Shown here one piece after another: positions 26,202 through 54,034 of a stretch of DNA of 64,000 nucleotides. Within the stretch, counting starts at the first letter, position 1. The number at the start of each line of letters is the position of its first letter. The stretch covers positions 1 to 64,000 of the forward strand of contig JANQKR010000046.1 in assembly GCA_028281025.1 (NCBI GenBank). Reading direction: 5' to 3'. Source of the DNA: Croceivirga sp. GTDB taxonomy: Bacteria; Bacteroidota; Bacteroidia; Flavobacteriales; Flavobacteriaceae. The notes under the pieces are model-generated. The model did not search any database. It was not told the DNA's origin and saw nothing but the letters and a program-made list of their open reading frames with translations. A program made the position numbers and the translations under genes.

Positions 26202-26237
26202 ATCATGATTTTACAGGTATTGGTAGCGTATGATTCT

Positions 26238-26263
26238 AAAAAAACTGCCCAGTTACGGGCAGT
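26238..26263 (-). terminator. Terminator of the dha operon (minus strand)
   Basis: ACTGCCC (26244-26250) pairs with GGGCAGT (26257-26263). Read on the minus strand, the stem is followed by seven T (complement of 26238-26244). It lies 37 bp past the DhaK stop. Confidence 0.88.
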
Positions 26264-26299
26264 CTTTTAACAAACTAACTCGAACTAAACTCGTTATCA

Positions 26300-27295: not shown

Positions 27296-27314
27296 ATTTC
27301 TAGTTTTGATTCCG

Positions 27315-27959: not shown

Positions 27960-27960
27960 G

Positions 27961-28668: not shown

Positions 28669-28685
28669 AGGTTTTGGTCGTTTAC

Positions 28686-29564: not shown

Positions 29565-29592
29565 ATTGAGAATGTTTATAGTTCAATGCTAC

Positions 29593-29618
29593 TACGTACG
29601 AATAGGTCCCAATACGTA
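29593..29618. promoter_or_regulatory. Paired TACGTA palindromes upstream of aldolase operon
   Basis: TACGTA occurs at 29593-29598 and 29613-29618, 20 bp apart, inside a looser inverted repeat (GCTactACGTA...TACGTaAGC), 30-55 bp before the minus-strand aldolase start. It is a possible operator; no matching regulator is identified. Confidence 0.3.
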
Positions 29619-29653
29619 AGCAGTTTAAAGATTTTTCCATGATTATCGGGAGT

Positions 29654-31721: not shown

Positions 31722-31724
31722 GGA

Positions 31725-32972: not shown

Positions 32973-33000
32973 AAAAGCTTTTTATTAGTTACTTGTCGTC

Positions 33001-33036
33001 AAAAAGGAACAGCCCCACTTTTATGAGCGAGGCTGT
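33001..33036 (-). terminator. Terminator after the TonB receptor (minus strand)
   Basis: ACAGCC (33009-33014) pairs with GGCTGT (33031-33036). On the minus strand the stem is followed by TTCCTTTTT. It separates the receptor from the downstream dehydratase operon; read-through is likely because the stem is only 6 bp. Confidence 0.6.
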
Positions 33037-33058
33037 ATTTTCAATGTTTTTAGTATGG

Positions 33059-35896: not shown

Positions 35897-36199
35897 TTTG
35901 TTTGGTTTAGTTTTCCGATACTCTTGTTCAAATCCAAAAGAGCTGAAATGGTAGCTTGTGATTATAGGTTCTTATATGGATTTGGCATTAAAACGCCCAA
36001 TAATTGATGTTCCCTTAACATAAGGTTGAAAAAAATATCATTTTTAAAAATTGAACCCCTTGAATATCGGAATCCCATAATCGCTTTAAAGCAATTTGGG
36101 AAGGGAAGGAATCGAGGCTACTGATGCCTTATCAAAAACATGTATCCTAAGGGAATAGGCAGTTTATTGGGGTAAGTATGCAGAAGGTGAGGGGCCTAA
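35897..36199. other. 303-bp leader/intergenic region
   Basis: No coding sequence is supported. It holds the upstream region of the minus-strand receptor gene and the end of the sigma gene. There are AT-rich tracts (about 36030-36050) but no recognisable -7 element or strong hairpin. Confidence 0.4.
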
Positions 36200-36757
36200 C
36201 TAAGAATATTGCACATGAAGGTATTCCTTGATGTTCTTCATGGCGAGGGCTATATGAACCTCCACGGTTCTTGGGGATATATTCATTTTTTCACCAATTT
36301 CCTTGTAGCTGAGGGATTCGTCCCTACTAAGCTTGAAGGCCATCTTTCGTTTTTCAGGGAGCAAATCGATAGCATAGTTGATAAGTTGCGAGAGTTCTTT
36401 GACCTCCAATTGTTTTTCGAGTGAATGCTCTGCATTTGTTGTAACGACATTAAAGTGGTCGCAATACTTTCTGTAGCTGTTTAATTTTCTAAAATCACTA
36501 ATGATTTTGTTCTTCACCAGAACAAAAAGGAAATACTTTATGGATTTATCACGGTCCAACTCCGCCCTTTTTTCCCAAACTTTCAAGAAAACCTCCTGGG
36601 CTATATCATTGGCCATTTCCTTGTTGCCACAAATGTAAAAGGCATAGTTGGTGACCGGTTCAATGTATCGTTCAAATAAAATCTTGAAGGATTCAGTGCA
36701 ATCCTGATTGATGGCGGCGATTAGTGTATTGTCAGAGGAAGGAGATGAAGTGAGCAT
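36200..36757 (-). CDS. ECF RNA polymerase sigma factor (FecI/RagA-associated type)
   Basis: A 185-residue sigma factor of the Bacteroidota FecI expansion group. I use the ATG at 36757; the TTG at 36775 falls inside a regulator palindrome and is improbable. Region 2: YAFYICGNKEMANDIAQEVF, then LKVWEKRAELD. Region 4: LPEKRKMAFKLSRDESLSYK and the helix-turn-helix EIGEKMNISPRTVEVHIALA. A -7-like TATATTTG and a 14-bp LacI-type palindrome lie just upstream. The cognate FecR is probably the gene at 38150, with a dehydrogenase gene in between, and the STN-bearing receptor at 39107 is the likely sensor. Confidence 0.92.
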   Translation of the reverse strand: MLTSSPSSDNTLIAAINQDCTESFKILFERYIEPVTNYAFYICGNKEMANDIAQEVFLKVWEKRAELDRDKSIKYFLFVLVKNKIISDFRKLNSYRKYCDHFNVVTTNAEHSLEKQLEVKELSQLINYAIDLLPEKRKMAFKLSRDESLSYKEIGEKMNISPRTVEVHIALAMKNIKEYLHVQYS

Positions 36758-36770
36758 TAGTTTAGTTCGG

Positions 36771-36784
36771 TGCAATCGATTGCA
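36771..36784. promoter_or_regulatory. LacI-family operator in front of the ECF sigma gene
   Basis: TGCAATCGATTGCA is a perfect 14-bp palindrome, identical to the site at 49512-49525 in front of the GH28 operon. It starts 13 bp upstream of the sigma ATG and lies 1 bp from a TATATTTG -7 element, so it should cover the transcription start. A CG-centred palindrome of this size is typical of LacI-family operators. Confidence 0.75.
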
Positions 36785-36785
36785 T

Positions 36786-36793
36786 CAAATATA
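36786..36793 (-). promoter_or_regulatory. Bacteroidota -7 promoter element
   Basis: The minus strand reads TATATTTG, an exact match to the TAnnTTTG consensus, about 30 bp before the sigma ATG. No clear -33 TTG is seen. Confidence 0.55.
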
Positions 36794-37013
36794 GAAATTA
36801 TTGTAAAATTATCATTTTATTTCTGTTAAAAATTAGGATTTAATAGGATTCGCCTTAAAAAAAGATGTATACAGTAATTTTTACTTCATCCTTTTGTATG
36901 AAGATGCTTTCAAATAAGGGTATGTGGCCCTTGTATCGTATTATGGATGACCAATAAGTTTATACATCGGTGTTTTCTGCGGTCAGGTAATTCCAAAATA
37001 AAACGTCGGGAAG

Positions 37014-38078
37014 ATGACACAAAAGACCAACTTCAATATTGCGGTGATTCCTGGTGATGGAATAGGGAAACCAGTAATTGAACAAGGCATAAGGGTATTG
37101 GAAAAAGTGGCCGGGCAGTTGGGAATATCCTTCGATTGGGAGCACTTTGATTGGAGCTGTGAGCATTTTCATAAAGCCGGTAAAATGATGCCCGAAGATG
37201 GTCTGGAACAGTTAAAAAGACACCATGCGATTTATCTTGGGGCAGTGGGCTATCCCGGAGTCCCAGACCATATATCGCTATGGGGATTGCTTATTCCCAT
37301 ACGCAGGGTTTTTCAGCAATATGCTTGTATACGACCTGTTCGGTTGTTTGAGGGGGTGCCTTCTCCTCTGGCAGGAGTCGGACCAGGTGATGTGGACTTT
37401 GTCGTAGTCAGGGAAAACAATGAGGGCGAGTATTCAGAAATCGGAGGGCGAATTTTTCAGGGAACGGATGCTGAGGTGGTCTCCCAGCAAACCCTCTTTT
37501 CCAAAAAGGGAGTCGATAGAATATTGCGCTACGCTTTTGATTTAGCCGGTCGTCGTAAAGGAAAAGTAACTTCGGCTACCAAATCCAACGGAATTATGCA
37601 TACCATGCCTTTTTGGGATGAACGTTTCGCCATTTTAGCGAAAAAATATCCCCAAGTACAGACAAACCAGTTCCATATCGACATCCTGACTGCACATTTT
37701 GTGCAGCATCCACAATGGTTCGATGTAGTGGTAGGCTCTAACCTATTTGGCGATATTCTTTCCGATTTAGGACCCGCAGTAGCTGGAACTATTGGGATAG
37801 CAGCTTCAGCCAACATCAATCCGGAAGGTCAGTTTCCGTCCATGTTTGAACCAGTACATGGTTCTGCACCCGACATTGCTGGCAAAGGTATAGCCAATCC
37901 TATCGGAGCAATTTGGGCCGGAGCCATGATGCTAGAGCATCTTGGCTATAAAGAAGGTCATGATCTTATTCTTGGGGCCATTGAAAGAGTGGTGAAGCAT
38001 CAATCGGGTAAGACCAGGGATATGGGAGGAACGGCTACCACCTTGGAATGTGCAAACGCCATTTTAAATGAGATCTAG
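37014..38078 (+). CDS. Tartrate/D-malate dehydrogenase-type decarboxylating dehydrogenase
   Basis: A 354-residue NAD-dependent beta-hydroxyacid oxidative decarboxylase of the isocitrate/isopropylmalate dehydrogenase family. Visible: N-terminal IAVIPGDGIGKPVIEQG, substrate-loop LWGLLIPIRRVFQQYACIRP (the SLWGL variant seen in TtuC/DmlA rather than LeuB), VVRENNEGEYSEIGG, metal-binding Asp residues in FGDILSDLGPAVAG, and FEPVHGSAPDIAGKGIANP. It sits between a divergent sigma gene and its presumed FecR, an unusual place for an enzyme, which suggests control by the same signal. A substrate such as tartrate or malate arising from acid-sugar breakdown is inferred. Confidence 0.9.
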   Translation: MTQKTNFNIAVIPGDGIGKPVIEQGIRVLEKVAGQLGISFDWEHFDWSCEHFHKAGKMMPEDGLEQLKRHHAIYLGAVGYPGVPDHISLWGLLIPIRRVFQQYACIRPVRLFEGVPSPLAGVGPGDVDFVVVRENNEGEYSEIGGRIFQGTDAEVVSQQTLFSKKGVDRILRYAFDLAGRRKGKVTSATKSNGIMHTMPFWDERFAILAKKYPQVQTNQFHIDILTAHFVQHPQWFDVVVGSNLFGDILSDLGPAVAGTIGIAASANINPEGQFPSMFEPVHGSAPDIAGKGIANPIGAIWAGAMMLEHLGYKEGHDLILGAIERVVKHQSGKTRDMGGTATTLECANAILNEI

Positions 38079-38149
38079 GAATTATATTGGGAATCCGAAC
38101 TTCTTTTGCTTAAAACAAATATATTTATAGCCATGAAAACTCATCCATA

Positions 38150-39103
38150 ATGTCCAAGCAAGACCGCAAGCCAACAGATGAGGAATGGATAGATTTTTTT
38201 CAGGGCAAGAGCTCTGAAGAAGCATATATCAGGCTCAAATCCCTCATGGAACAAGGGGAAGCCAATGAGGTCATGGAAAGACTGTTCGAAACGCAGTTTT
38301 CCGCGGATAAGGAATCAGCTGTGAAGGTGGATTCCGTTGAGTCGTTTGCAAAGCTTCAGGAAAAGATAGCGCCCAAGCATGAGCGGAACACCAAGCGTTT
38401 GCCGTATAAATGGATGGCCATTGCCGCTTCTTTGGCATTGTTATTGACTTTGGGCATCATGTTTCAACTTAGGCAGGATGCGCCCGCTATGCAGTTCTCC
38501 AGTGGGGGCATGGAAATTAGAAAGGTAACCCTGCCGGATGGCTCAGAGATTACGTTGAATGCCAATAGCAGTATTTCATATACAGAAGAAGAAGGTAAAA
38601 GAGCCGTTCTGCTGTCGGGTGAGGCTTTTTTTGATGTTGCCCGTAACGAGAAAATACCTTTTGTAATCACAGTGATGCATACAGAAGTTACCGTGTTGGG
38701 AACTTCTTTTAATGTCAAGGCGATAAATTCGGAAGAGACGGTGGTCAGTGTAAAGTCGGGTAAGGTCCAAGTGAATAATGGTAATCATCAGATGGTTCTT
38801 ATACAGAATGAACAAGCGATTTCCAGTGCTCTGGCACTGCATAAAAGTGAAGCCGATGAACACAATACCTCTTGGATGCAGAAGCGATTGGTCTATGATA
38901 GTGTGCCGTTAAAATTGATTTTCATGGATATAGAATCTTGGTACGGAATCAACATTATCTCCGATACTACCATAGATACAATTCCTTACACGGCATCGGT
39001 TAATTTGGACAAGGGGCTGGATGTTTTCCTTCAAAACCTTAGTATTTCTGAGAATATCAATTTCACCGTATCTAGGGATAACGTGAGCTTGAGCAAAAAG
39101 TAA
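38150..39103 (+). CDS. FecR-family anti-sigma factor
   Basis: A 317-residue membrane anti-sigma factor. Cytoplasmic N-terminal region (about 1-80; ATG at 38150), one membrane helix at about 85-105 (WMAIAASLALLLTLGIMF), and a periplasmic FecR domain (about 118-215; VTLPDGSEITLNANSSISY; VTVLGTSFNVKAIN). The C-terminal DUF4974-like part (LKLIFMDIESWYGINIISD) contacts the receptor's STN domain in related systems. It is followed after 3 bp by the STN-bearing TonB receptor, with which it is surely co-transcribed. The cognate sigma factor is probably the divergent one at 36200-36757. Confidence 0.92.
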   Translation: MSKQDRKPTDEEWIDFFQGKSSEEAYIRLKSLMEQGEANEVMERLFETQFSADKESAVKVDSVESFAKLQEKIAPKHERNTKRLPYKWMAIAASLALLLTLGIMFQLRQDAPAMQFSSGGMEIRKVTLPDGSEITLNANSSISYTEEEGKRAVLLSGEAFFDVARNEKIPFVITVMHTEVTVLGTSFNVKAINSEETVVSVKSGKVQVNNGNHQMVLIQNEQAISSALALHKSEADEHNTSWMQKRLVYDSVPLKLIFMDIESWYGINIISDTTIDTIPYTASVNLDKGLDVFLQNLSISENINFTVSRDNVSLSKK

Positions 39104-39106
39104 TGA

Positions 39107-42100
39107 GTGTTTTACAAAAACAAATGGTACGATTTTCCTCAAAATAGTCTCAAATTCATCGTGACCTTTTTTTTGTGTTGCTCTACCTCAATTACTCATT
39201 CCCAAGAAACCAAGTACCTTTCAAAAGATTCCACTTCTTTGCGAAAAGCGATACGACTAATAGAGCGAAACGAACCGTACCACTTTTTTTACAATTCCAC
39301 CATTATCGATGGTGGAAAACGGGTTTTCTTAAAACCCTACTCCAATATCAGGGAACTTTTAGATGGGTTGTTCAAGGATAGTATGGTGGGCTATCGAATT
39401 TTGGACAATACCATAGTTCTTTTCCGGGAGAACAAATCCCAACTGGCCGATACAATGGAAGAAAGCCTTTGGACGGTAAGATTCAAGATTTTCGATGGCC
39501 TGTCCAATGAGCCACTTTTGGGAGCTTTGGTACAGTCAGAGAATAAAAGGATAAGCGGTGTCTCCAATCATGAAGGTACGCTTTCTCTTTCCTTTTACTC
39601 AGAGAAAGACGAGCTACCGCTTAACGTGCGTTATTTGGGATATCGTTCCATAGATACCCTTATTTCTTTACCAAAGGTTTCGAAATCGATTTCGTTGGCA
39701 CTAATTCCTGAAACCTTTGAACTATCTGAAGTTATTGTCAATGCCAGAGTGAAAAAAAACCTTAAAGAAGTAAATGCCCAAAAAAATGCAATCAATCAGA
39801 TACAGGTACTGGCATCGGATACCAAAGATAGACTGCCGGACCAAAATATGGGTGAGGCCCTACAACGTATGACAGGCACTACAATTGGCCGCAGTTATGG
39901 TGAGGGTAATACCGTGGCAATACGCGGAACCCCCATTAGTTATACCACCATACAGTACAATGGTGAAAACTTGCCAACTACAGAAATAGACGGACGAAGA
40001 AATACGATAGTTGCGGGCATCGGAGTAGATCAATCAGAAAACGTTCAAGTGATTAAGACTAAAACGCCAGACACTGATGGTGATGCCATCGGGGGATCTG
40101 TGAACTTGATCCCAGTGTTTTCATTGTCTAAAGAGATGGCATTGAAAGTCGAATTGGGCAGTGGCTACAATAACCTTTCAAAAGGCTATAACCTCACGGG
40201 AATGCTCACTTTGGAAAAACGCTATCTGGTTAATGAAAAATATCCTGAAGGCAGGCTCGGTATTAAAGTGGGGGGTAACTATTACCGTACTGACAACGGG
40301 CGCGATCGATTGGAGATTGATTGGGACCGAAAAACACTATCCAATGGTAATCAATCCATTCTTATCAACAACTATAACTGGCGTGATTTACAGAACGAGC
40401 GTACCCGCTCGGGCTACAACACCTCTATAGATTATAAGCTGCGTGACAATGGCAGGCTATATGCCCATTTGATGTACAACAACCTGACGGATGATGAAAT
40501 CAGGAACAGGATTCGATACCGCCCTTTGCAGGGAAACTACGTCAATGCAACCCGCGTTGACGATGCTAGGGTAGAACGTGACTTAAGGGATAGGAGGAAG
40601 ATACGTAAAAACACTTCCGTCAATTTGGGGATTGATTCTTATATCGGAAACTGGAAATTTGATGCATCTTTCTTTTATACCATGACGGACCGTACAGACG
40701 AATCAATAAGGGCCACATTTGAATTTGAGGATGTTGATTTATTGCTTTCGGAGGTCAATACTGATTATCCCAAAGTAAATGGGGCAATAGTTGATTTGAA
40801 CGACGTTTCACTATATACTTTAGAATCGATACGTCCGAGCGACCTACGATCGGTAACCGGGGAAAACTTGGTCTTTCGTATGGATATCAAAAAACCCATT
40901 AACACCTTTTTGGGGAAGGGTGAACTACAAACAGGACTGAAGTACAGGAAGTTGAAAAACGGTCGTCAACGCTGGGTTTCTATCTATGAAAATAGTAGTA
41001 GTGATCCCTTGAATCTTTCAACTACGGCCGTATCTGTCCCAGATAATGATTTTATGCAGGGAAATCTCAATTTTGACAGTAGAATAGATACCGGCACATT
41101 GGTTGATTACTTCGGCGAGAACCAAGCTGAATTTTCAGTCAACCAAAACCGAAGTGCAAGAGTTGTATCAGAATTTTTTACCAGAGCCGAAGAGGATATT
41201 ATGGCTGTGTATGCTATGGCCACTTTTAGAGGAAAATCATGGGATGTGCTCACAGGATTACGATTAGAAAAAAACAGAGGAACTTACAGGGCAAACGAAG
41301 TAGTGACAAACAATGATGATTCTCCAGTAATAAATCCCATTGTAAGCCAAAAAGAATATACAATACCACTGCCTAATTTTCAAGTCAAATATGAGTTGTC
41401 GGAACGTTCACAGGCACGATTCGCCCTAACGAATGGGTTTACCAGGCCAGAATACAACAGTGTTTCGCCAAGCAGGGTGATAGACATTGAAGATAGGGAG
41501 GTCTTTTTGGGGAATCCAAATCTTAATCCAACCCGTTCAATCAACCTTGATTTGGCGTACGAATACTATTTGGGTGACATTGGTTATGTATCTGCATCAG
41601 GTTTTTATAAACGTATTACAGATTTTATTTATCAGATTGATAGGACGGTGGTTGGTGATGAGTGGGAGAATGCTGATAACTTTATCGATTACGAACTTAC
41701 ATCTTTTGAAAATGGCGAATACGCCAATCTCTGGGGTTTGGAACTTACCGCCCAAACACGTCTAAACTTTTTGACCGGCTTCTTGAAATATTTTTCGGTT
41801 TCCGGGAATATAAGTTTAACCCATTCAGAGGCGGTTGCGGAAAGAGGTGAGGTTTTTAGGCTTCCTGGGCAGGCACAGAATTTTGGCAATATGATTCTTT
41901 CATATAATAAAAAAGGATTTTCAGCTGGTTTGGCCTTCAATTATATAGATGATTTTATCTTTTCAATTGGCAATAACCGTGAAGAAGACTTTCTTTTCGA
42001 CAGTCGTTACCAAATAGACGCCAACATATCGCAGAACATCGGGAAGCATTTCAAAATTTATGCTGAGGGCATCAACTTGAGCAACCAGCCTTTGCGTGGT

Positions 42101-42181
42101 TTTTTTGGCAGTGACCAAAGGGTAAGCGAACTTGAAGTCTATTCCTGGTGGGTGCGTTTTGGTATTGGGTACAAATTTTAG
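39107..42181 (+). CDS. TonB-dependent receptor with STN signalling domain
   Basis: A 1024-residue outer-membrane transducer. It starts at GTG 39107, 3 bp after the fecR stop; an overlapping ATG at 39103 is in another frame and closes quickly. Signal segment at about 16-32 (FIVTFFLCCSTSITHS). STN domain at about 40-105 (LRKAIRLIERNEPYHFFYNS), carboxypeptidase-like domain at about 122-200, plug at about 245-345 (MGEALQRMTGTTIGRSYGEG; VAIRGTPISYTTIQYNGENL; PDTDGDAIGGSVNL), and a barrel ending WWVRFGIGYKF. It shares plug motifs with the receptor at 33059. No SusD is adjacent. It should sense its own substrate and signal through FecR to the ECF sigma factor. Confidence 0.93.
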   Translation: MFYKNKWYDFPQNSLKFIVTFFLCCSTSITHSQETKYLSKDSTSLRKAIRLIERNEPYHFFYNSTIIDGGKRVFLKPYSNIRELLDGLFKDSMVGYRILDNTIVLFRENKSQLADTMEESLWTVRFKIFDGLSNEPLLGALVQSENKRISGVSNHEGTLSLSFYSEKDELPLNVRYLGYRSIDTLISLPKVSKSISLALIPETFELSEVIVNARVKKNLKEVNAQKNAINQIQVLASDTKDRLPDQNMGEALQRMTGTTIGRSYGEGNTVAIRGTPISYTTIQYNGENLPTTEIDGRRNTIVAGIGVDQSENVQVIKTKTPDTDGDAIGGSVNLIPVFSLSKEMALKVELGSGYNNLSKGYNLTGMLTLEKRYLVNEKYPEGRLGIKVGGNYYRTDNGRDRLEIDWDRKTLSNGNQSILINNYNWRDLQNERTRSGYNTSIDYKLRDNGRLYAHLMYNNLTDDEIRNRIRYRPLQGNYVNATRVDDARVERDLRDRRKIRKNTSVNLGIDSYIGNWKFDASFFYTMTDRTDESIRATFEFEDVDLLLSEVNTDYPKVNGAIVDLNDVSLYTLESIRPSDLRSVTGENLVFRMDIKKPINTFLGKGELQTGLKYRKLKNGRQRWVSIYENSSSDPLNLSTTAVSVPDNDFMQGNLNFDSRIDTGTLVDYFGENQAEFSVNQNRSARVVSEFFTRAEEDIMAVYAMATFRGKSWDVLTGLRLEKNRGTYRANEVVTNNDDSPVINPIVSQKEYTIPLPNFQVKYELSERSQARFALTNGFTRPEYNSVSPSRVIDIEDREVFLGNPNLNPTRSINLDLAYEYYLGDIGYVSASGFYKRITDFIYQIDRTVVGDEWENADNFIDYELTSFENGEYANLWGLELTAQTRLNFLTGFLKYFSVSGNISLTHSEAVAERGEVFRLPGQAQNFGNMILSYNKKGFSAGLAFNYIDDFIFSIGNNREEDFLFDSRYQIDANISQNIGKHFKIYAEGINLSNQPLRGFFGSDQRVSELEVYSWWVRFGIGYKF

Positions 42182-42276
42182 TTTTCAAATCAATTCCTTC
42201 ACTTAAGTACCGTAGTCCATTCACACGTAATATATCTCAAATACATGTTGTAAATACTGTATCTAAAACCATTTTT

Positions 42277-43383
42277 ATGAAAAAACTACTGGGCATTATT
42301 GTTTTATTTCACTTTTCATTATGCATTCATGCCCAAATGGGTCAGATAACCGGTGAAGCACAGTTACGATTATCGCCTGTTTGGGTACGCGTTGCTGATG
42401 TGAATGGAGAAAAGGGTTCCGTTGAAAGTGCTGAATTCTCAAGAGATGGCACTCGTATCGTTACGGGTACTAAATTCGATAATAGTGTAATCATGTGGCG
42501 TACCAGCGATGGTGCCGAACTTTGGCGGGCCTATGCTTCAGAAGAGATTGAACGGGTAGCTTTTTCACCGGATGACAGCATCGTGGCGGGTGTAAGTGAA
42601 GACTATCTGATTACCCTTTATAATGCCAATACAGGTAAAGAAATTAGAAGAATTGAGCTCGAAACAGCAGCAGATGGTCTCGCGTTTGCCAATACAAAGA
42701 ACATTCTTGTATCGGGCCAAGAAAAAATAAAACAAAAAGACGATACCAAAATAGGCTACATAAGAGCCTATGATATGGAGACTGGAGAATTGATGTACAA
42801 AGTAAATCATGGCGAGACCGTAAACGAGATTCAGTTTACCGCAGATGATACCTATTTTTTGAGTGCCGGTATGAATTCTGAGGTTAAAATATGGGAAACC
42901 GACACTGGCAAATTGATTAGGACCCTCACCCCTGGCCGTGAATTCGGTTTTGTGTGTGGCTTTTTTTCTCCCGATGGTAAATACGTAGTGGCCTCAGGTT
43001 TTAAGGGGGATATTTTTTTATGGGATTTTGCTACGGGTGAACTGCTTCGTGAGTGGAACACCAGTGGGCGCAAGGTAGAGACCTTGGCTTTTACTGCGGA
43101 CGGACGGTACTTGTTATCGGCTGGCAATGATCCCTACATTCGTGTATATCGTACTTCGCAAATATTAAATCCAGTGGGCAAGGTACCCATTGCATATGCC
43201 GTGCACGCTAACGATCAGGCAGAATATATCGATTTCAATACCGATAGTAGTTTTTTGACCAGTGCACATCAGGATGGTACCGTGCGGTTATGGACATGGA
43301 TGAGTGAAGACCAAGGGGTCAATGCCATTATGCACAAGGCCGTGAAAAAGACCCAAAGTGATGCCAAGAAGAAACAAAAGTAA
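42277..43383 (+). CDS. Exported WD40-repeat beta-propeller protein
   Basis: This 368-residue secreted protein starts at the ATG at 42277, which gives the signal peptide MKKLLGIIVLFHFSLCIHAQ; a longer reading from 42148 would overlap the receptor gene and hide the signal. The rest is six to seven WD40-like blades, each with a GH/D-x(n)-WD or W-like end (SAEFSRDGTRIVTGTKFDNS; VAFSPDDSIVAGVSEDYLIT; FFSPDGKYVVASGFKGDIFL; AFTADGRYLLSAGNDPYIRV). No catalytic residues are evident. It lies between a TonB receptor and two catabolic genes, so a periplasmic scaffold or sugar-binding role is possible but unproven. Confidence 0.88.
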   Translation: MKKLLGIIVLFHFSLCIHAQMGQITGEAQLRLSPVWVRVADVNGEKGSVESAEFSRDGTRIVTGTKFDNSVIMWRTSDGAELWRAYASEEIERVAFSPDDSIVAGVSEDYLITLYNANTGKEIRRIELETAADGLAFANTKNILVSGQEKIKQKDDTKIGYIRAYDMETGELMYKVNHGETVNEIQFTADDTYFLSAGMNSEVKIWETDTGKLIRTLTPGREFGFVCGFFSPDGKYVVASGFKGDIFLWDFATGELLREWNTSGRKVETLAFTADGRYLLSAGNDPYIRVYRTSQILNPVGKVPIAYAVHANDQAEYIDFNTDSSFLTSAHQDGTVRLWTWMSEDQGVNAIMHKAVKKTQSDAKKKQK

Positions 43384-43546
43384 AATAACCGGGCCTTTCA
43401 ACATAAGTGTAGTCAATATAGAATTGAAGGTTTTGTTCATTTTTCAATTGTATTTACAATGATAGCAACTTGAATTTTCACCAAATGAACTATTTGGTAT
43501 TGGTTATTTGTGAAAAAGAAAGTTTTAACCTAAAAAGATTCTTTAA

Positions 43547-44152
43547 ATGAAAATATTGGGTATTGCCGCCAATTTTTATGATAAGGAAGCTCCACGGCAA
43601 CCACTGCCAAAAGACCTCAGCATTTTTGTCAAAGTGCCATCATCACTGGCGAAAGGAAAAGTTTTTCACTACCCAAGATGGAGCCAAAACGTCTGGCACG
43701 AGATGGAACTAGTGCTTAGAATCGGTAAAAAACTCAAAAACGTTTCGGAAATGGAAGCCACCAACGTCTTTGACGGAATAGCTTTAGGGATGGATTGGAC
43801 TGCAAAAGACCTGCAATTGAAAGCTAAGGAAAAAGGTTGGCCGTGGGCTTTTGCCAAAGGGTTTGACGAAGCTACTTTCATCTCTGATGTTTTTCCTGTG
43901 GATGCCTTTGGTGATGTACGCCAGCTAGACTTGACCTTTGCTATAAACAAAAAAGTAGCGGAGCAGGGTAATCTCCGTGACCTAAAGGCCAATTTTGAAC
44001 AAATCATTTCCTATTGTTCCAAGTTCACCACGCTCTATCCCGGAGATTTGATAATGACAGGGGCACCCCCGTCGCCAGGACCCATTCAAATTGGTGATGT
44101 CTGTGAGGGATATATTGGAGACCATAAACTATTGGATTTTAAAGTAGTGTAA
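43547..44152 (+). CDS. Fumarylacetoacetate hydrolase (FAH)-family protein
   Basis: A 201-residue single-domain enzyme of the FAH/FAHD1 acylpyruvase group, which cleaves C-C bonds of 2,4-diketo acids or decarboxylates and hydrates related keto acids. Metal-binding and active-site stretches are WHEMELVLRIGKKLKN, GMDWTAKDLQLKAKEKGWPW, AKGFDEATFISDVFP, and the C-terminal LYPGDLIMTGAPPSPGPIQIGD. Predicted cytoplasmic. It runs 3 bp before the cytochrome c/dehydrogenase gene. In diketo-hydrolase sugar-acid pathways an FAH enzyme acts after an enolase-superfamily dehydratase and a dehydrogenase, which matches the neighbourhood, but the specific substrate is not determined. Confidence 0.9.
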   Translation: MKILGIAANFYDKEAPRQPLPKDLSIFVKVPSSLAKGKVFHYPRWSQNVWHEMELVLRIGKKLKNVSEMEATNVFDGIALGMDWTAKDLQLKAKEKGWPWAFAKGFDEATFISDVFPVDAFGDVRQLDLTFAINKKVAEQGNLRDLKANFEQIISYCSKFTTLYPGDLIMTGAPPSPGPIQIGDVCEGYIGDHKLLDFKVV

Positions 44153-44155
44153 TAC

Positions 44156-45730
44156 ATGCGTATTCTAATTTTTGTTATAACCATATTCTGCTTTACTTCA
44201 TGTAAAAGAGAGGCTAAAAAAGTGGATTTGGTAGCTGGAGCAGCATTGTATGAAGTAAAATGTGCCGTATGCCATCAGTTGGATGGTAATGGTATTAAGG
44301 GAGTGCATCCTCCTGTTTCCAATACACCATGGGTCAATGGAAGCAAAGAGCGTCTCATCAATATTGTACTTCACGGATTAGAGGAACGCATACGCGTTAA
44401 GGGAGAGATTTATGACAATGTAATGCCCGCAATCCCAACACTTACGGATGAAGAGATTTCCAATGTGCTAAGTTATGTGCGAAATAGTTTTGGGAATGGG
44501 GCCGCCAATATTACAATTGAGGAAGTGTCGGTGGTGAGGGCTGGCAAATCCTTAAACGAACCTCTGGATCTTTCTACTGTGTCCCCTATTACCGATTATG
44601 CCAACCGAAAACGTAAAGAACGCGTAGAAAGCAGGGTGGGTAGTGCTTACAAAGAAAAAAAGTTGCGATTGGACCAGATTGACGTTCCCGAAGGTTTTGT
44701 AATCGAGGTTTTTGCAGAGGGTTTAGAAAATCCAAGATCGCTAGCTCTAGGTGAAAATGGAACTGTATTTGTTGGTTCTCGGCGCAACGAAACTGATTTT
44801 ATCTATGCTATCCGCGATATGGATTCAGATGGTAAGGCAGATAGTGTTAGAAAAATTTCAAATGGATTGGAATGGAATCCAATGGGAGTAGCCATGCTCG
44901 GTAAAGATTTGTACGTGGCGGAAATCCATAGAATAGTACGTTTCCGGAACATCGAGGATTACTTGGACAGTCCTCCAACTCCCGAACTTGTTTTCAACTA
45001 TCCGCCAGAAAAGAAGCATGGTGACAAGTACATTCGTTTTGGGCCGGATGGTAAACTATATGTGCCTGTGGGTGCTCCATGTAACGTGTGTTTGGAAAAG
45101 AACCCGATTTTCTCCTCGATCACAAGAATAACACCAGAGGGTAAGGATTTTGAAATTGTTGCCCATGGCGTGCGGAACAGTAGGGGATATGATTGGCATC
45201 CCATCACTGGAAAACTTTGGTTTAGCGACAATGGAAGGGATCTTATGGGGGATGACCTACCCCCGTGTGAAATCAATGTAATGAACTGCGAAGGAGACCA
45301 CTACGGATTTCCCTTTTGGCACGGAAACAATATCAAAGATCCCGATTATGGGGATAAAAGACCCTCAACGGATTTTGTTCACACCACCTTTGACCTTGCA
45401 GCGCATGCCGCACCCGTTAGCTTGAAGTTTTACACGGGAGAAATGTTTCCAAAAGAATACCGGAATTCTATTTTGGTATCGGAACATGGTTCTTGGAACA
45501 GGACCAAAAAACAGGGATATCGTATAATGAAACTGACGGAGAGGGATGGAAAGGTCACTTCTTATGAACCTTTTATTACCGGATGGCTCAACGAATCCAA
45601 GAACGATGCTTGGGGAAGGCCAGTTGATATTCTTCAACTTCCCGACGGGTCGCTGCTATTGAGTGATGACTACGCCGGTGTTATCTATCGCGTAAGCTAT
45701 TCTAGGAAAACCACAAAAGGGGGAGATTAG
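44156..45730 (+). CDS. Cytochrome c / PQQ-type sugar (sorbosone-like) dehydrogenase lipoprotein
   Basis: This 524-residue periplasm-facing protein has a lipoprotein leader (MRILIFVITIFCFTSC, Cys16). Residues about 22-120 are a class I cytochrome c domain with haem motif CAVCH at about 36-40 and a likely axial Met in NVMPAIPTLTDEEISNVLSY. Residues about 170-520 form a sorbosone/glucose dehydrogenase-type beta-propeller: VPEGFVIEVFAEGLENPRSL, KKHGDKYIRFGPDGKLYVPV, VAHGVRNSRGYDWHPITGK, WFSDNGRDLMGDD, SILVSEHGSWNRTKKQGYR. It would oxidise an aldose or aldehyde with PQQ and pass electrons to its own haem. PQQ synthesis genes are not seen here, so the cofactor must come from elsewhere. Confidence 0.9.
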   Translation: MRILIFVITIFCFTSCKREAKKVDLVAGAALYEVKCAVCHQLDGNGIKGVHPPVSNTPWVNGSKERLINIVLHGLEERIRVKGEIYDNVMPAIPTLTDEEISNVLSYVRNSFGNGAANITIEEVSVVRAGKSLNEPLDLSTVSPITDYANRKRKERVESRVGSAYKEKKLRLDQIDVPEGFVIEVFAEGLENPRSLALGENGTVFVGSRRNETDFIYAIRDMDSDGKADSVRKISNGLEWNPMGVAMLGKDLYVAEIHRIVRFRNIEDYLDSPPTPELVFNYPPEKKHGDKYIRFGPDGKLYVPVGAPCNVCLEKNPIFSSITRITPEGKDFEIVAHGVRNSRGYDWHPITGKLWFSDNGRDLMGDDLPPCEINVMNCEGDHYGFPFWHGNNIKDPDYGDKRPSTDFVHTTFDLAAHAAPVSLKFYTGEMFPKEYRNSILVSEHGSWNRTKKQGYRIMKLTERDGKVTSYEPFITGWLNESKNDAWGRPVDILQLPDGSLLLSDDYAGVIYRVSYSRKTTKGGD

Positions 45731-45788
45731 ATTCCTATTACCCCAGATCAGCTATCTAGCCAGTAGGCATGAGAAGTGCATCAATACC

Positions 45789-45820
45789 AAAAAAGCCCCA
45801 TCCAACAAATTGAATAGGGC
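45789..45820 (-). terminator. Terminator of the third enolase-superfamily gene (minus strand)
   Basis: On the minus strand GCCCTATTC (complement of 45812-45820) pairs with GGATGGGGC (complement of 45795-45803), a 9-bp stem including G-T pairs, followed by six T. It lies 25 bp past the stop. An outer AAGTGCA...TGCACTT may extend the structure. Confidence 0.8.
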
Positions 45821-45845
45821 GTTGCACTTGAAAAAAACTAACTGA

Positions 45846-47069
45846 TTAAACCCTATATTTTTTTACTAGTGACGGATCGGGGTCCATTCCCAGACCAACT
45901 ACTGTGGGAGCATCGATCATACCGTTCTTTATGGGAAATGGTTGTAGCGTAGGATTGAAATCCCTTGCTTTGGCAGGATAGGTCTCCAATATTTTGGCAT
46001 TGGGTATTGAAGCGAGGGCATGCACATTCATATGCGCATATCCGTGGGGAGCTATCTCAATATGATAAGCGGAACAAACTGCTGCAATTTTTCGCATCTC
46101 TGTAAGTCCACCACCTTTAATAGTGTCGATGTTGACGATATCGCAAGAGTGGTTTTCCACCAAATCCCTGGCACCCCATCTCGTGTATTCATTTTCGCCG
46201 GCTACGATTGGTATGTTCAGTTCTTCCCTTACCTCTGCATTCCCGCGCCAATCGTCCGGGGCCACGGGTTCTTCAAACCAATACAAATCAAGGTCCTCTA
46301 CCATTTTGCCAAACCGGATTGCTTCATAGGCAGTGTCGTAGCCGTTGTTGGCGTCCACCATCACCCTCGCGTCGTTACCTAACGCTTCGACCACTTCTTT
46401 TACTCGTTGGGCATCTTTCTTGGCGTCTAGAAAACCGACCTTCATCTTTACTACATTGTATCCCTCTTTAACATAGCCTTCCATTTCTTTTACCAAATCT
46501 GCATTGGTCTTTCCTTCAGCATAATAACCACCGGCGGCATAAACAGGGATTTGCTCCCTAAAATTTCCCAATACCTTATGCACGGGAAGTTGTAGGGCCT
46601 TTCCAACGATATCCCAAACACAGAGGTCTACGGAACCTATGGCGTGTATCTCCTTTCCTTTGGCAACGGGTTTCCTATTGTGAAAGAACATATGATGCCA
46701 AACCTGTTCCGTGTTCATCAAGTTGAGCCCTTTGATTTTTTTAGCGAATCCCAGAGTGGTCGAAGAGACCCCTTTCATACCGGACCAACCGATGATACCT
46801 TCGTTGGTGGTTATTTTTAAAAACGAACTGGTGGGATATCCTCCTCCGGAAGACTTTATGGCATTCCAGGTCTTCGGCGTTTTTTTGGGAAACCTTAGCT
46901 TAACGATTTCCACATCTTTAACGCTAATGTATTGTATAGCGTCCTTAACAGAACTTTTTAGACTGGGCTCCACATACTCCGTATAACGTTCACCGGCCAT
47001 GGCCGGACTTGCCATCAGTGCTCCTGCCCCGAGTCCCAGGTTTTTAAGGAATTTTCTTCGTTGTTCCAT
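45846..47069 (-). CDS. Enolase-superfamily dehydratase/racemase, Tat-like leader
   Basis: A 407-residue mandelate-racemase-subgroup enzyme. The start at 47069 exposes the leader MEQRRKFLKNLGLGAGALMA with an R-R-K-F-L Tat core and a likely cleavage after AMAG; the 52 codons upstream, though open, read through leader DNA and lack a credible N-terminus. It has K-x-K (Lys208, Lys210 in VVKMKVGF), metal ligands Asp239 (VMVDANNGY), the Glu in YWFEEPVAP and the Glu in IVAGENEYTRW, and a His in IEIAPHGYAHM. The K-x-K base pair differs from the K-x-R of the tandem pair at 30-33 kb, so it probably handles a different stereoisomer. It is a single-gene transcript ending at a good terminator. Confidence 0.9.
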   Translation of the reverse strand: MEQRRKFLKNLGLGAGALMASPAMAGERYTEYVEPSLKSSVKDAIQYISVKDVEIVKLRFPKKTPKTWNAIKSSGGGYPTSSFLKITTNEGIIGWSGMKGVSSTTLGFAKKIKGLNLMNTEQVWHHMFFHNRKPVAKGKEIHAIGSVDLCVWDIVGKALQLPVHKVLGNFREQIPVYAAGGYYAEGKTNADLVKEMEGYVKEGYNVVKMKVGFLDAKKDAQRVKEVVEALGNDARVMVDANNGYDTAYEAIRFGKMVEDLDLYWFEEPVAPDDWRGNAEVREELNIPIVAGENEYTRWGARDLVENHSCDIVNIDTIKGGGLTEMRKIAAVCSAYHIEIAPHGYAHMNVHALASIPNAKILETYPAKARDFNPTLQPFPIKNGMIDAPTVVGLGMDPDPSLVKKYRV

Positions 47070-47220
47070 TAAATAGTTTAGAATAATACGTAAACCAGGA
47101 TACTTACCCTTAACGAGGATTTTTTTTCGAAATAGCAGATTAGGATTGCACCTTTTATAAGTAATACAATTGTGGCCCTCTTTGATTCCAGTTTTCTTCT
47201 CCTGGGCATTCTTTGGGACG

Positions 47221-47240
47221 TGCATTGGAATTCCAGTGCA
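47221..47240. promoter_or_regulatory. 20-bp near-perfect palindrome, possible operator
   Basis: TGCATTGGAATTCCAGTGCA is symmetric except for one T/G position on each arm. It lies 20 bp beyond the TauE/SafE stop and about 150 bp upstream of the enolase-superfamily start. It has no U-tract, and size and symmetry fit a repressor site. It differs from the TGCAATCGATTGCA operator. Confidence 0.4.
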
Positions 47241-47260
47241 TTACCTAGATAATCGGCATC

Positions 47261-48094
47261 TCACAATAGCCCAAATACCATTTTAAGGCATAAGGCTCCC
47301 ATGACCACACCGAATACAATCCGCAGACTGTTTGCGGAGGCTTTTTGTGCAATTTTCACCCCAAGTGGTGCCCCAAATAAAATCCCAAGGGAAATTGGAG
47401 CAACCAAGCTCAAGGAGATATACCCAAATTGATTGGGAAGAATAACATCAATCACCGTTGTAGAAAAGACATTAAGATAGCTTAAGCTCACTGCAGTGGC
47501 CAGTAGTGTGATAACTCCGATTGATATGGAACTTGCTTTTTTAATTGCCATTTTGAACAGGTCTGCTAAGGCTGGTATAACAATAATACCACCACCAAAA
47601 CCAGACATTGCAGTGGTGGCGCCTGTGAGGATTCCAACAGCGGCAAAGGCACTTTTCGGTTTGGATGACTTGGTTTTCCCATGCGATTCCGAACCGATAT
47701 TCCGATAAAAAAGAAAACGAATGGAAACCAATAGTACCAAGAAAGCGAAGAGCATATCAAAATACAGTTTATTGTACCATTGCGCGTTTTTCACCACTTC
47801 CGACAAACAAAAGCCTACTAGGGCTGCTGGAACACCAATCCAAAGGGTTTCTTTATAATGAAAGTTTCGAATTCTTAATTGACGGTAACTTACAAAGAGC
47901 CCATTGAAGACGGTAATGGCCAATGAGTGCGCAATAATGAATTTTACCGCTTCCTGTGATTCAATAGCGTATTTGATAAAAAGCATATCGAATGCTGGTA
48001 TAAGTATTACATTTCCGCCGGTGCCCAACAATCCGGAATAAAACCCGGTGGCCATACCCAGGAGAAACAGTACTAAAAGAAGCTCTAAACTCAT
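47261..48094 (-). CDS. TauE/SafE-family inner-membrane exporter
   Basis: This 277-residue membrane protein has about eight helices in two inverted halves. Family motifs: GLLGTGGNVILIPAFDML near the N-terminus and TTAMSGFGGGIIVIPALADL in the second half, each a glycine-rich loop entering a membrane segment, and GAPLGVKIAQKASANSLRIV near the end. Members move sulfite, sulfonates or other organic anions, usually outwards. Beside a sulfatase-containing locus it could relieve sulfur anions, but the cargo is not shown. It directly follows a uxaC remnant on the same strand and may have been the second gene of that former unit. Confidence 0.9.
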   Translation of the reverse strand: MSLELLLVLFLLGMATGFYSGLLGTGGNVILIPAFDMLFIKYAIESQEAVKFIIAHSLAITVFNGLFVSYRQLRIRNFHYKETLWIGVPAALVGFCLSEVVKNAQWYNKLYFDMLFAFLVLLVSIRFLFYRNIGSESHGKTKSSKPKSAFAAVGILTGATTAMSGFGGGIIVIPALADLFKMAIKKASSISIGVITLLATAVSLSYLNVFSTTVIDVILPNQFGYISLSLVAPISLGILFGAPLGVKIAQKASANSLRIVFGVVMGALCLKMVFGLL

Positions 48095-48105
48095 ATAAGG
48101 AACTG

Positions 48106-48240
48106 TTAGTTTACTGCCATGTATTCGGGTAAAAGACAGTTGAGGTAGTCTATTATGGGGTAGTTTGCGGTATTATCATGATAAAGGATTCTGGTAAAAT
48201 CATTGGTCAGTAAAAAGTCCTGAGTGACAAAGTTTTTCAT
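48106..48240 (-). pseudogene. uxaC: uxaC (uronate isomerase) N-terminal remnant
   Basis: A 44-codon frame ending in TAA reads MKNFVTQDFLLTNDFTRILY, then HDNTANYPIIDYLNCLLPEY and MAVN. This aligns position by position with the start of uronate isomerases (x-F-x-x-x-DFLL..x-F-x-R-x-LYHDYA....PI.DYHCHL-PP..IA). The metal-binding H-x-H of that family (DYHCHL) is changed to DYLNCL, and the remaining 420 or so residues are missing, so it cannot be active. It lies between lacI and the TauE/SafE gene. It implies that an ancestor of this locus isomerised galacturonate or glucuronate, in agreement with the GH28 gene nearby. Confidence 0.75.
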
Positions 48241-48275
48241 GAAGTTTCTTTCGGTAGCTTCGTTGGGGACAAAAA

Positions 48276-49301
48276 TCAATCATTTCTAAGTGAGGACGCC
48301 CTTACGACTAATTCTGGTTGTAAAACCGTTTTTTTTGGATGGGTTTTTTTATTAGGGTGTTCCAACGCATCGAAAAAAAGCTGTGCGGCTACATGGCCCA
48401 TTTCCAAAGGAAATTGTTTGATGGAAGTCAATGGCGGGTCTGTCAAGTCTGTAAATTGTTCGTTACTAAAACCTACTACGCCTACATCCTCGGGAATACG
48501 TACTCCCTTTTTCTTAAGGACTTGCATAGCACCCGCAGCGGCATAGTCACTGGAAGAAAAAATGGCATTGAATGCTAAGCCTTGTTCAAGTATTTTTGTA
48601 ATCCCTTGAATCCCGTCCTCTAACTGCATATCCCCTCGACTTACCAAGCCTTCATCAAATGGAATACCATAATCGCTGAGTGCCTGTTTATAGCCACGGA
48701 ACCTCTCTTTGTATATGTTTACTGCGTTTACCGTTGTAAAATGGACTATTTTACGATATCCCTGCTTAATAAGGTGTTCAGTGGCCATGTACCCTCCAAG
48801 GTAGTCATCGATAATCACTTGGTTGGTTAACAGGTCGTCCGTAGTCCTGTCAAAAAGAACTAAGGGAACACCTTTGTCAATCACATTTTGGTAATGTTCC
48901 AAATCTCTGGTGTTCTTTCCCAAGGAAGCTATTATCCCATCTACCCTTGCATTGAGCAGGGCGTTAATAGTGGAGACTTCATGTTTTACAATCTCATTGG
49001 ATTGACTAACCACCACACGATAATTCAAACCGTAAGCTACCTCCTCAATGCCGCGAATAACGGCCGAGAAGAAAGTCCTGTCAATAATCGGTACTACAAC
49101 ACCTATAAGTTGGCTTTTTCCACTTCTTAGGGCTGAGGCAATATGATTGGGTTGATAATCTAGCTCATTGGCCTTATCCGTTACGGCCTTTTTAGTAGCC
49201 TTACTGATTCTTGGATCATTTTTTAGTGCCCGCGAAACAGTGGAAGCCGTGATATTAAGTTTCTTCGCAATATCATGAATGGTTGCTTTTTTAGACTTCA
49301 T
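48276..49301 (-). CDS. LacI-family transcriptional repressor
   Basis: This 341-residue regulator has a DNA-binding domain at residues 1-60 (TIHDIAKKLNITASTVSRAL, hinge helix YQPNHIASALRSGKS) and a periplasmic-binding-protein-like sensor domain (LIGVVVPIIDRTFFSAVIRG; VPLVLFDRTTDDLLTNQVII; VGVVGFSNEQFTDLTDPPLT). It is divergent from the GH28 operon with 329 bp between, where two near-identical 14-bp palindromes are its probable operators; a third copy lies before the ECF sigma gene at 36.8 kb. Its effector is probably a uronate or acid-sugar intermediate (inference). Confidence 0.94.
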   Translation of the reverse strand: MKSKKATIHDIAKKLNITASTVSRALKNDPRISKATKKAVTDKANELDYQPNHIASALRSGKSQLIGVVVPIIDRTFFSAVIRGIEEVAYGLNYRVVVSQSNEIVKHEVSTINALLNARVDGIIASLGKNTRDLEHYQNVIDKGVPLVLFDRTTDDLLTNQVIIDDYLGGYMATEHLIKQGYRKIVHFTTVNAVNIYKERFRGYKQALSDYGIPFDEGLVSRGDMQLEDGIQGITKILEQGLAFNAIFSSSDYAAAGAMQVLKKKGVRIPEDVGVVGFSNEQFTDLTDPPLTSIKQFPLEMGHVAAQLFFDALEHPNKKTHPKKTVLQPELVVRASSLRND

Positions 49302-49396
49302 GGATGTTTTGGAAAAAAATTAAAAGGAATAGATGAGGGCGTTTCAATTTACTTTGCTTTTACCGAAAATAGCCGAATTAAATGTATGAATTTTAA

Positions 49397-49410
49397 TGTA
49401 ATCGATTGCA
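49397..49410. promoter_or_regulatory. LacI operator, lacI-proximal copy
   Basis: TGTAATCGATTGCA differs by one base from the perfect palindrome at 49512. It lies 96 bp upstream of the lacI start, beside a TACTTTG (near -7 consensus, minus strand), consistent with autoregulation. Confidence 0.65.
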
Positions 49411-49471
49411 TAATGTCAAAGTAAACCCTAAAATGGCTGAATAAGTCATAAAATAAATAAATTACATTCAA

Positions 49472-49479
49472 TACATTTG
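49472..49479 (+). promoter_or_regulatory. -7 promoter element of the GH28 operon
   Basis: TACATTTG matches the TAnnTTTG consensus. It lies between the two operator copies, so transcription would start about 25 bp before the downstream operator. No clear -33 TTG is seen. Confidence 0.5.
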
Positions 49480-49511
49480 TTTTTTTGCTGACGGATAATT
49501 GTCATAAGTTG

Positions 49512-49525
49512 TGCAATCGATTGCA
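49512..49525. promoter_or_regulatory. LacI operator, GH28-proximal copy
   Basis: TGCAATCGATTGCA is a perfect 14-bp palindrome, identical to 36771-36784. It sits just downstream of the presumed transcription start and 115 bp before the GH28 start. Two copies 115 bp apart could allow looping. Confidence 0.75.
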
Positions 49526-51079: not shown

Positions 51080-51080
51080 C

Positions 51081-52367: not shown

Positions 52368-52423
52368 AACCTATTCTCGAATAAAGCCCTATGGACAATC
52401 GCCATAAATTGAAAGAAACCAAA

Positions 52424-54016: not shown

Positions 54017-54034
54017 TACAAAAAACATTTTCAA

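Follow-up and report, generated by a model that had tools for sequence, protein, structure and literature searches.

Organization of the Locus

The window, which is the whole stretch of 64,000 nucleotides of Croceivirga sp., a marine flavobacterium, analysed here, carries an ECF sigma factor gene (36200..36757, minus strand) encoding a protein of 185 aa recognized by the NCBIfam model TIGR02985 (145.4 bits, cut-off 126.4). On the plus strand lie the genes for a tartrate-dehydrogenase-like Iso_dh protein (37014..38078; TTC model, 542.7 bits, cut-off 470.4), a FecR-type anti-sigma factor (38150..39103; PF04773, 68.1 bits, cut-off 24) and a TonB-dependent receptor (39107..42181), followed by a WD40 protein, an FAA-hydrolase and a cytochrome-c/sugar dehydrogenase-like protein (42148..45730, plus strand), which perhaps belong to the same IsoDH-FecR-receptor operon. 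The FecR gene stands beside the sigma gene in six of six genomes; as the two genes are divergent, with one gene between them, their pairing is drawn from neighbourhood. On the other side of the sigma gene, a putative ECF-driven, acid-sugar operon (24741..35896, minus strand) comprises the TonB receptor TBDR_A (33059-35896, minus strand), two MR_MLE enzymes, a creatininase-family protein, a class II aldolase, HAD, Dak2 and Dak1 proteins and a DASS anion symporter.

Further downstream, an MR_MLE enzyme with a Tat-like leader is encoded at 45846..47069 (minus strand), the called ORF start at 47225 being probably too early, followed by the LacI-family repressor LacI1 (48276..49301, minus strand) and by a pectin-type uronide operon with GH28, MR_MLE, sulfatase and weak GH88-like genes (49631..55924, plus strand). 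For this operon and the two others, we infer co-transcription. None of the four MR_MLE proteins of the window reached an NCBIfam cut-off, and the PDB matches of one of them are a mixture of dehydratases and racemases.

The neighbours named in a preliminary description of this DNA (ECF sigma, FecR, TonB receptor, LacI and GH28) were correctly identified. Its term STN receptor refers to the TonB receptor, whose candidate N-terminal STN domain (aa 58-107) is weak: it falls below the Pfam cut-off in the window (E 0.076), and its counterpart in the orthologous receptor of G007 does so too (E 9.2e-6, 25.8 bits, cut-off 28.4).

The Operator Palindrome

Three sites of a LacI-family operator palindrome had been described, and all were recovered: a perfect copy, TGCAATCGATTGCA, on the sigma promoter (36771..36784), a second perfect copy upstream of the GH28 operon (49512..49525) and a copy with one mismatch, TGTAATCGATTGCA, on the lacI1 side (49397..49410). 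It is an even palindrome with a central CG, located near its own lacI gene and target operons, as is characteristic of the operators of this family. With up to two mismatches, three matches occur in the window versus 0.35 expected, and one of 100 shuffled windows reached that number. Across the genome (5,101,206 bases), four perfect and three one-mismatch sites were counted, while the reversed palindrome gave none in the same bases. The perfect sites, two in the window and two on contig C6, are all upstream of genes, those on C6 belonging to the uxaBC/TonB-receptor and uxaA/kdgK operons of a galacturonate-type pathway. Neither the four perfect sites nor that at 49397 is covered by an ATG-started ORF; the one-mismatch sites on contigs C14 and C32 lie inside ORFs and were thus discarded as chance matches. 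A looser pattern, TGNAANCGNTTNCA, gave 18 forward matches in the same genome against 13 for its control, being too loose to define a regulon.

Within the genus, 24 perfect sites were found in eight of 11 genomes. Each of the seven genomes bearing LacI2, a second LacI-family protein, has at least two, and the four genomes lacking it have 0, 1, 0 and 0, the single one being in G002, which has neither LacI1 nor LacI2. Outside the genus, four of the 394 sampled family genomes have one perfect site each. Random occurrence, which the preliminary description had named as speaking against its proposal, was not found in the genome, genus or family counts. The uxaA//kdgK operator is present in all seven LacI2 genomes, the G007 copy bearing a mismatch. 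The one-mismatch site at 49397 is identical in G004, G006, G008 and G405, and the G405 counterpart of the 49512 operator has one mismatch. On the GH28 side, the operator starts 33 bases past a -7-like box, TACATTTG, at 49472-49479.

The Sigma Gene Promoter

The sigma gene has a -7 box, TATATTTG (36786..36793, minus strand), which we take to be of the Bacteroidota housekeeping type. As previously described, the palindrome is one base away from it, ending at 36784 where the box runs from 36793 to 36786 on the minus strand. The first ATG of the gene is at 36757, 13 bases after the end of the palindrome; if an in-frame TTG at 36775 were the start codon, it would overlap the palindrome by five bases. 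The predicted operator is kept in all six sigma-bearing genomes (the window, G004, G006, G007, G008 and F. meridianipacifica), supporting a LacI-family operator on the sigma promoter.

It could be argued that the palindrome is a chance sequence or generally conserved promoter DNA, as the site at 36771 is conserved in L043-L046 and the entire intergenic stretch is common to the window and four near relatives. G007 speaks against this: its sigma gene (67%) is preceded by a perfect operator in the corresponding position, with TACATTTG in place of the -7 box, and box and operator together are identical to those of the window at 24 of 25 positions, whereas 20 alignment windows ending at least 30 columns upstream of the box have 3-16 of 24 identical. 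Considering also the genome-wide and genus-wide counts and the position at uronate operons in seven of seven LacI2 genomes, this explanation is extremely improbable.

Two Paralogous LacI Proteins

LacI1 and LacI2, which are 64% identical, both possess an N-terminal LacI HTH (PF00356, 49.5 and 61.6 bits, respectively, cut-off 27) and a periplasmic-binding-protein-like sensor domain (PF13377, 112.8 and 111.1 bits, cut-off 26.5). Among the 10 LacI HTHs of this genome, the recognition helix TASTVSRAL and the hinge PNHIASALRSG are common to these two only. LacI2 adjoins uxaC-uxaB in all seven genus genomes that have it. The relative Flagellimonas meridianipacifica combines the sigma gene with LacI1 and LacI2. 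In a tree covering 17 of 27 rows, the other 10 being absent from the ORF filter output, the LacI1 sequences fall into a single group and so do those of LacI2, each with 100/100, a result that bears on the grouping and not on the timing of the duplication.

The preliminary description proposed that one LacI, that of the window, may govern two loci, those of the sigma factor and of GH28. The linkage of lacI1 and the sigma gene, about 12.5 kb apart in the window, is indeed preserved in G004, G006 and G008, as well as in G405, where some 16 kb separate them. Yet the operator is found at four loci, including the galacturonate-type operons of LacI2 itself, with two paralogous candidates sharing the recognition helix, and G007 has the sigma operator with no LacI1 orthologue; control by LacI1 alone is very unlikely. 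Since G007 keeps both the sigma gene and its perfect operator in this situation, LacI2 is likely the reader there.

Under a division of labour, the galacturonate-pathway repressor LacI2 alone would read the sigma site, with LacI1 acting only on the divergent promoter region that it shares with GH28. Besides the sigma operator that G007 keeps without LacI1, a LacI site with one mismatch immediately before TBDR_A in the same genome agrees with it. However, as the two proteins have the same helix and hinge, and identical perfect operators stand at both sets of loci, there is no ground for excluding LacI1, and such a division is possible but rather doubtful. In the window genome, both LacI1 and LacI2 probably bind the operator.

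A Candidate Sigma-Dependent Promoter

Upstream of the three operons around the sigma gene, including that of FecR, the pattern TAAGGGW-N15-CGWWNTA is found in all five sigma-bearing genomes of the genus, and the sigma factor may read it. In the window, candidate ECF-dependent promoters are TAAGGGT-N15-CGTATTA before the IsoDH-FecR-receptor operon (36915..36943, plus strand), TAAGGGA-N15-CGTTTTA before the TBDR_A operon (35989..36017, minus strand) and TAAGGGT-N15-CGTATTA before the MR_MLE gene at 45846-47069 (47084..47112, minus strand). Because G000 and G007 were the source of the pattern, its count of 15/15 is partly circular, and of the five genomes four are near relatives, G007 being the only distant witness.

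Searched separately, G000 and G007 each gave this as the best shared 7+7 element of the three upstream regions, with 12 of 14 columns, reached by none of 400 shuffles in either genome. The three regions had been picked after the motif was seen, and a separate per-region shuffle likewise used the motif already chosen. Of the 455 triples of 15 upstream regions at the locus, this one alone scores 12. No triple at 12 appeared among 1000 natural triples, a sample too small, as a larger control demonstrated: 14 of 12,000 natural triples scored 12 or 13, corresponding to about half a triple expected by chance among 455. Consequently, once the choice of three among 15 regions is counted, the motif in G000 alone is not significant and is no proof. 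Between G000 and G007, the blocks are identical at 38 of 42 positions, the spacers at 21 of 45 and the flanks at 38 of 89, although the block identity profits from the use of the pattern itself in finding the elements of G007.

The pattern has no genome-wide specificity, with 0-2 matches elsewhere per sigma-bearing genome, 0-4 in those without the sigma gene and 0-5 for the reversed control. This and the G000 correction speak for an alternative in which the sigma gene carries a real LacI operator, but the three-operon motif is not the promoter read by this sigma factor, which has other targets. Against it, G007 keeps the blocks, but not the spacers or flanks, at all three places, and every motif site is present in five of five genomes, making this reading unlikely. 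A differing pattern starting with TTNAAGGGT had no match at the locus sites in a genus-wide search and is uninformative for the sigma motif, and no flavobacterial FecI-type promoter consensus was found in the literature search. The two-layer control suggested in the preliminary description gains some support from a sigma-type motif on the FecR/receptor operon, a motif that is not significant in one genome alone.

Proposed Mechanism

Starting from the operators computed here, their positions and conservation, the LacI paralogue pair and the conserved motif, a full model can be proposed in which a paralogous pair of hexuronate LacI proteins gates the ECF sigma factor, which in turn drives three neighbouring operons. 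The palindrome would serve as operator in a LacI regulon for hexuronates of the galacturonate/KDG type, with LacI2 from the uxaC-uxaB cluster and LacI1 from the window as its two readers. With the predicted inducer absent, both repressors would bind over the housekeeping start site of the sigma gene, keeping it off; uronate breakdown would raise the intracellular inducer, and the sigma factor would be made. It would become active only once the STN-type TonB receptor, sensing an outside ligand, relieves the FecR anti-sigma factor, and would then act through TAAGGGW-N15-CGWWNTA on TBDR_A with the acid-sugar enzymes, on the IsoDH-FecR-receptor operon and on the MR_MLE gene. Hence, the sigma factor would drive its own anti-sigma gene, not its own gene, and a second set of sugar-acid genes would probably be switched on only when a food signal from inside the cell coincides with a signal from outside.

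The larger natural-triple control lowered our confidence in this model from quite probable to moderately probable. It did likewise, from slightly better than even to evenly balanced, for its reading as a carbohydrate counterpart of Fur-FecI/HasI, where a duplicated hexuronate LacI would gate a FecI-like sigma factor whose targets, its own anti-sigma gene and a regulon for acid sugars, would share a newly defined Bacteroidota ECF promoter, the additional repressor site on a sigma target in G007 forming a feed-forward loop.

Comparison with Known Systems

With a LacI protein in place of Fur, the genes are arranged in a similar way to has of Serratia and fec of E. coli. In HasI-HasS-HasR of Serratia marcescens, Fur acts on the sigma gene and not on the anti-sigma gene, which is transcribed under the sigma factor, and the sigma gene is not autoregulated (PMC9249621). 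A metabolic repressor on the sigma gene only, a sigma-driven anti-sigma gene and no sigma autoregulation are likewise proposed here; the differences are a LacI-family regulator instead of Fur, acid sugars instead of heme, and divergent sigma and anti-sigma genes with one gene between. In FecI-FecR-FecA of E. coli, the inside sensor Fur represses the sigma gene, and the outside ligand acts via the TonB receptor and FecR; the fecA promoter is a further binding site of Fur, similar to the LacI-like site upstream of TBDR_A in G007, whereas fec uses Fur and iron and has fecIR on one mRNA (PMC9249621).

Among Bacteroides, KdgR, UxaR and UxuR are LacI-family regulators of the glucuronate/galacturonate pathways (PMC3878776, PMC4052901), forming one taxon-specific branch (PMC4052901). 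LacI1 and LacI2 are like them by family and by operators at uxa/kdg genes, LacI2 by its uxa linkage also; in the available portions of both papers, no sigma gene is named as their target, unlike the operator on the sigma gene here. The pectin PUL of the flavobacterium Gramella flava combines uxaA, uxaB, uxaC, kdgK, eda, a TRAP-type transporter, SusCD and exuR, a hexuronate repressor, and several of its genes rise on pectin; the accessible text mentions no sigma gene there, in contrast to the operator-bearing one described here (PMC5306329). Glycan sensing in Bacteroides thetaiotaomicron employs an ECF sigma factor, an anti-sigma factor and a SusC-like receptor (PMC3878776), to which the present locus would add a LacI operator on the sigma gene as inside sensor. 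A search that included the available text of PMC3878776, PMC9249621, PMC10766802 and PMC7831014, most subscription journals lying outside it, brought up no earlier case of an ECF sigma gene controlled by a LacI repressor.

Significance

B. thetaiotaomicron alone is reported to have 26 sigma/anti-sigma systems at sugar-utilization genes (PMC3878776). This locus bears on two questions about such systems, what turns on the sigma gene and which promoters the sigma factor reads, as it offers a putative intracellular food sensor on a sigma promoter and, from sequence, a candidate sigma-specific promoter. If the model is true, double gating in the style of iron uptake would have been reused for sugar acids, in a small regulon of three operons that would be open to direct tests.

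Putative operator sites and the promoter of the sigma gene

As the preliminary description had it, the 14-bp palindrome, a putative LacI-family operator, is perfect at 36771-36784 and 49512-49525 and one base off at 49397-49410. The ECF sigma factor gene (36200..36757, minus strand) starts at ATG 36757, and its -7 box, TATATTTG at 36793-36786, is the sole TAnnTTTG within 36700-37020 on either strand; one base separates box and palindrome, in agreement with the placing proposed over the presumed transcription start. Because the palindrome spans that expected start, a protein bound there would block RNA polymerase. The predicted operators at 49397 and 49512 lie between lacI1 (48276..49301, minus strand) and GH28, spaced by 115 bp in the window, the congener G004 and Flagellimonas meridianipacifica (G405), 114 in G006 and 113 in G008; this corresponds to about 11 helical turns, and a short repression loop is possible.

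The genome-wide search that had been proposed, run on the 5,101,206 bases of the own genome, returned four perfect and three one-mismatch sites, against none in the reversed control. Besides the two in the window, perfect sites occur on another contig (C6). One, C6:190096, separates lacI2-uxaC-uxaB from a divergently oriented TonB receptor operon that includes MR_MLE, GH28 and GH88-like genes; the other, C6:205276, is flanked by uxaA and kdgK-kdgA-TRAP transporter. Tagaturonate reductase, glucuronate isomerase, KDPG-aldolase and TRAP-transporter models score above cut-off on C6, while the uxaA and kdgK labels are based on Pfam families and context. The one-mismatch sites other than 49397 fall within ORFs.

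Conservation and the likely repressor

In the genus, 24 perfect sites are spread over 8 of 11 genomes: at lacI2//receptor (seven), uxaA//kdgK (six), the sigma gene (five), lacI1//GH28 (four), an MR_MLE gene in the more distant congener G007 (one) and in G002 (one). The uxaA//kdgK site of G007 and the GH28 site of G405 each carry one mismatch. The four LacI2-less genus genomes hold 0, 1, 0 and 0 perfect sites, and only 4 of the 394 extra-genus genomes in a 397-genome family sample hold a site, one each. The G002 site (L085 9808) lies between SusC-like and lipoprotein-like ORFs, labelled by eye. G002 has neither LacI1 nor LacI2; a LacI with TGTAATCGATTACA, 50% identical, lies nearby. In G006, G007 and G008 a one-mismatch operator also occupies a matching position just past the called start of uxaC (L093 2013, L098 7639, L101 7190); no such site is present in the own genome.

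Near relatives contribute little to the operator case, as the entire sigma intergenic region is conserved between the window and four of them. From the -7 box to the end of the operator, the window and G007 agree at 24 of 25 positions, against 3 to 16 in twenty 24-column windows ending at least 30 columns upstream of the box; three intermediate windows give 18, 16 and 19.

Among the ten LacI HTHs of the own genome, TASTVSRAL and PNHIASALRSG are found only in LacI1 and its paralogue LacI2, which are 64% identical. Of the 11 genus genomes, four carry a LacI1 orthologue (G000, which is the own genome, G004, G006, G008), seven carry LacI2 (G000, G004 to G009) and five the sigma gene (G000, G004, G006, G007, G008); F. 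meridianipacifica, with both repressors, is a sixth sigma-bearing genome. In the family sample no sigma orthologue was found beyond the genus, the other 11 matches being 33 to 40% identical. The sigma gene of G007, 67% identical, keeps a perfect predicted operator at an unchanged position, and the DNA past the MR_MLE gene carries different genes than in the window. No LacI1 was found in this draft assembly (about 80 contigs, 99% complete); its LacI matches number three, LacI2 at 64% and two others at 38% and 35%. Hence LacI2 is the likely reader of the sigma operator there, and LacI1 is dispensable for its persistence. The proposal of one LacI governing two loci is not supported in that form, given perfect sites at four loci, HTH motifs shared by both repressors and a G007 sigma operator without LacI1.

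Candidate sigma-dependent promoter

Upstream alignments with G007 revealed AAGGGT-N15-CGTA before the IsoDH-FecR-receptor operon, headed by a tartrate-dehydrogenase-like gene (IsoDH), and before the MR_MLE gene at 47069. TBDR_A, the TonB receptor at 33059-35896 (minus strand) heading the putative acid-sugar operon, is preceded by a variant of it; operon extents were taken from spacing and strand. All five sigma-bearing genomes of the genus carry TAAGGGW-N15-CGWWNTA upstream of each of the three, and G405 has it at its MR_MLE site; matches elsewhere number 0 to 2 in the five, 0 to 4 in the six genus genomes lacking the sigma gene and 0 to 5 per genome in the reversed control.

The three upstream regions were also searched de novo, separately for G000 and G007, for the 7+7 element with spacers of 13-18 that they share best. 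The motif was recovered both times at 12 of 14 columns, in G000 with spacer 14 owing to a shift of the first block by one base. No shuffle of 400 reached 12 columns in either, and 5 and 10 reached 11. The 15 locus regions of G000 form 455 triples, of which the motif triple alone scores 12; random natural triples reach 12 or 13 in 14 of 12,000 cases, so about 0.5 of 455 is expected by chance, which weakens the shuffle-based case. Block conservation in G007 carries the argument: blocks are 38/42 identical, spacers 21/45 and 15-base flanks 38/89 (Fisher tests, 9e-6 against spacers and 7e-8 against flanks), with the reservation that the G007 elements were located with the pattern itself; a MAFFT alignment places them at matching positions. 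For both motifs, G007 is the only distant witness.

The motif is absent upstream of the sigma gene. With the motif on three operons and not there, the likely targets of the sigma factor are the gene of its own anti-sigma factor, two receptors and acid-sugar genes, but not itself.

Regarding the neighbouring enzymes, the MR_MLE ORF called at 45846-47225 probably starts too early, the likely start being 47069 (MEQRRKFLKNLGLGAG), from which a Tat-like leader is recognized by eye, so that this acid-sugar enzyme (45846-47069) may be exported; one G007 MR_MLE ORF also contains such a leader. Behind the TonB receptor, 24741-32972 encodes an unusual set of two MR_MLE, creatininase-family, class II aldolase and HAD proteins, Dak1 and Dak2 kinase parts and a DASS symporter.

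Proposed two-layer control

According to a review, Fur acts on hasI and not on hasS, and HasI drives hasS without autoregulation of hasI; in the fec system, Fur acts on both fecI and fecA (PMC9249621). The window layout resembles has, with LacI in place of Fur. Bacteroides LacI regulators of hexuronate pathways have been catalogued, and the sections consulted mention no sigma target (PMC3878776, PMC4052901). The literature accessible to the search yielded no clear precedent for a LacI repressor acting on an ECF sigma gene.

A LacI site with one mismatch, TACAATCGATTGCA, is present in G007 downstream of the sigma-type promoter and ahead of the TBDR_A start, which places predicted repressor sites on the sigma gene and also on a candidate sigma target; the same interval of the window has no LacI site at up to three mismatches. 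The STN domain of the receptor is a weak match, and we infer the inducer, the LacI binding and the sigma-FecR pairing. In such an arrangement, LacI as an inside sensor would govern the sigma gene, and the receptor, as an outside sensor acting via FecR, would govern sigma activity.
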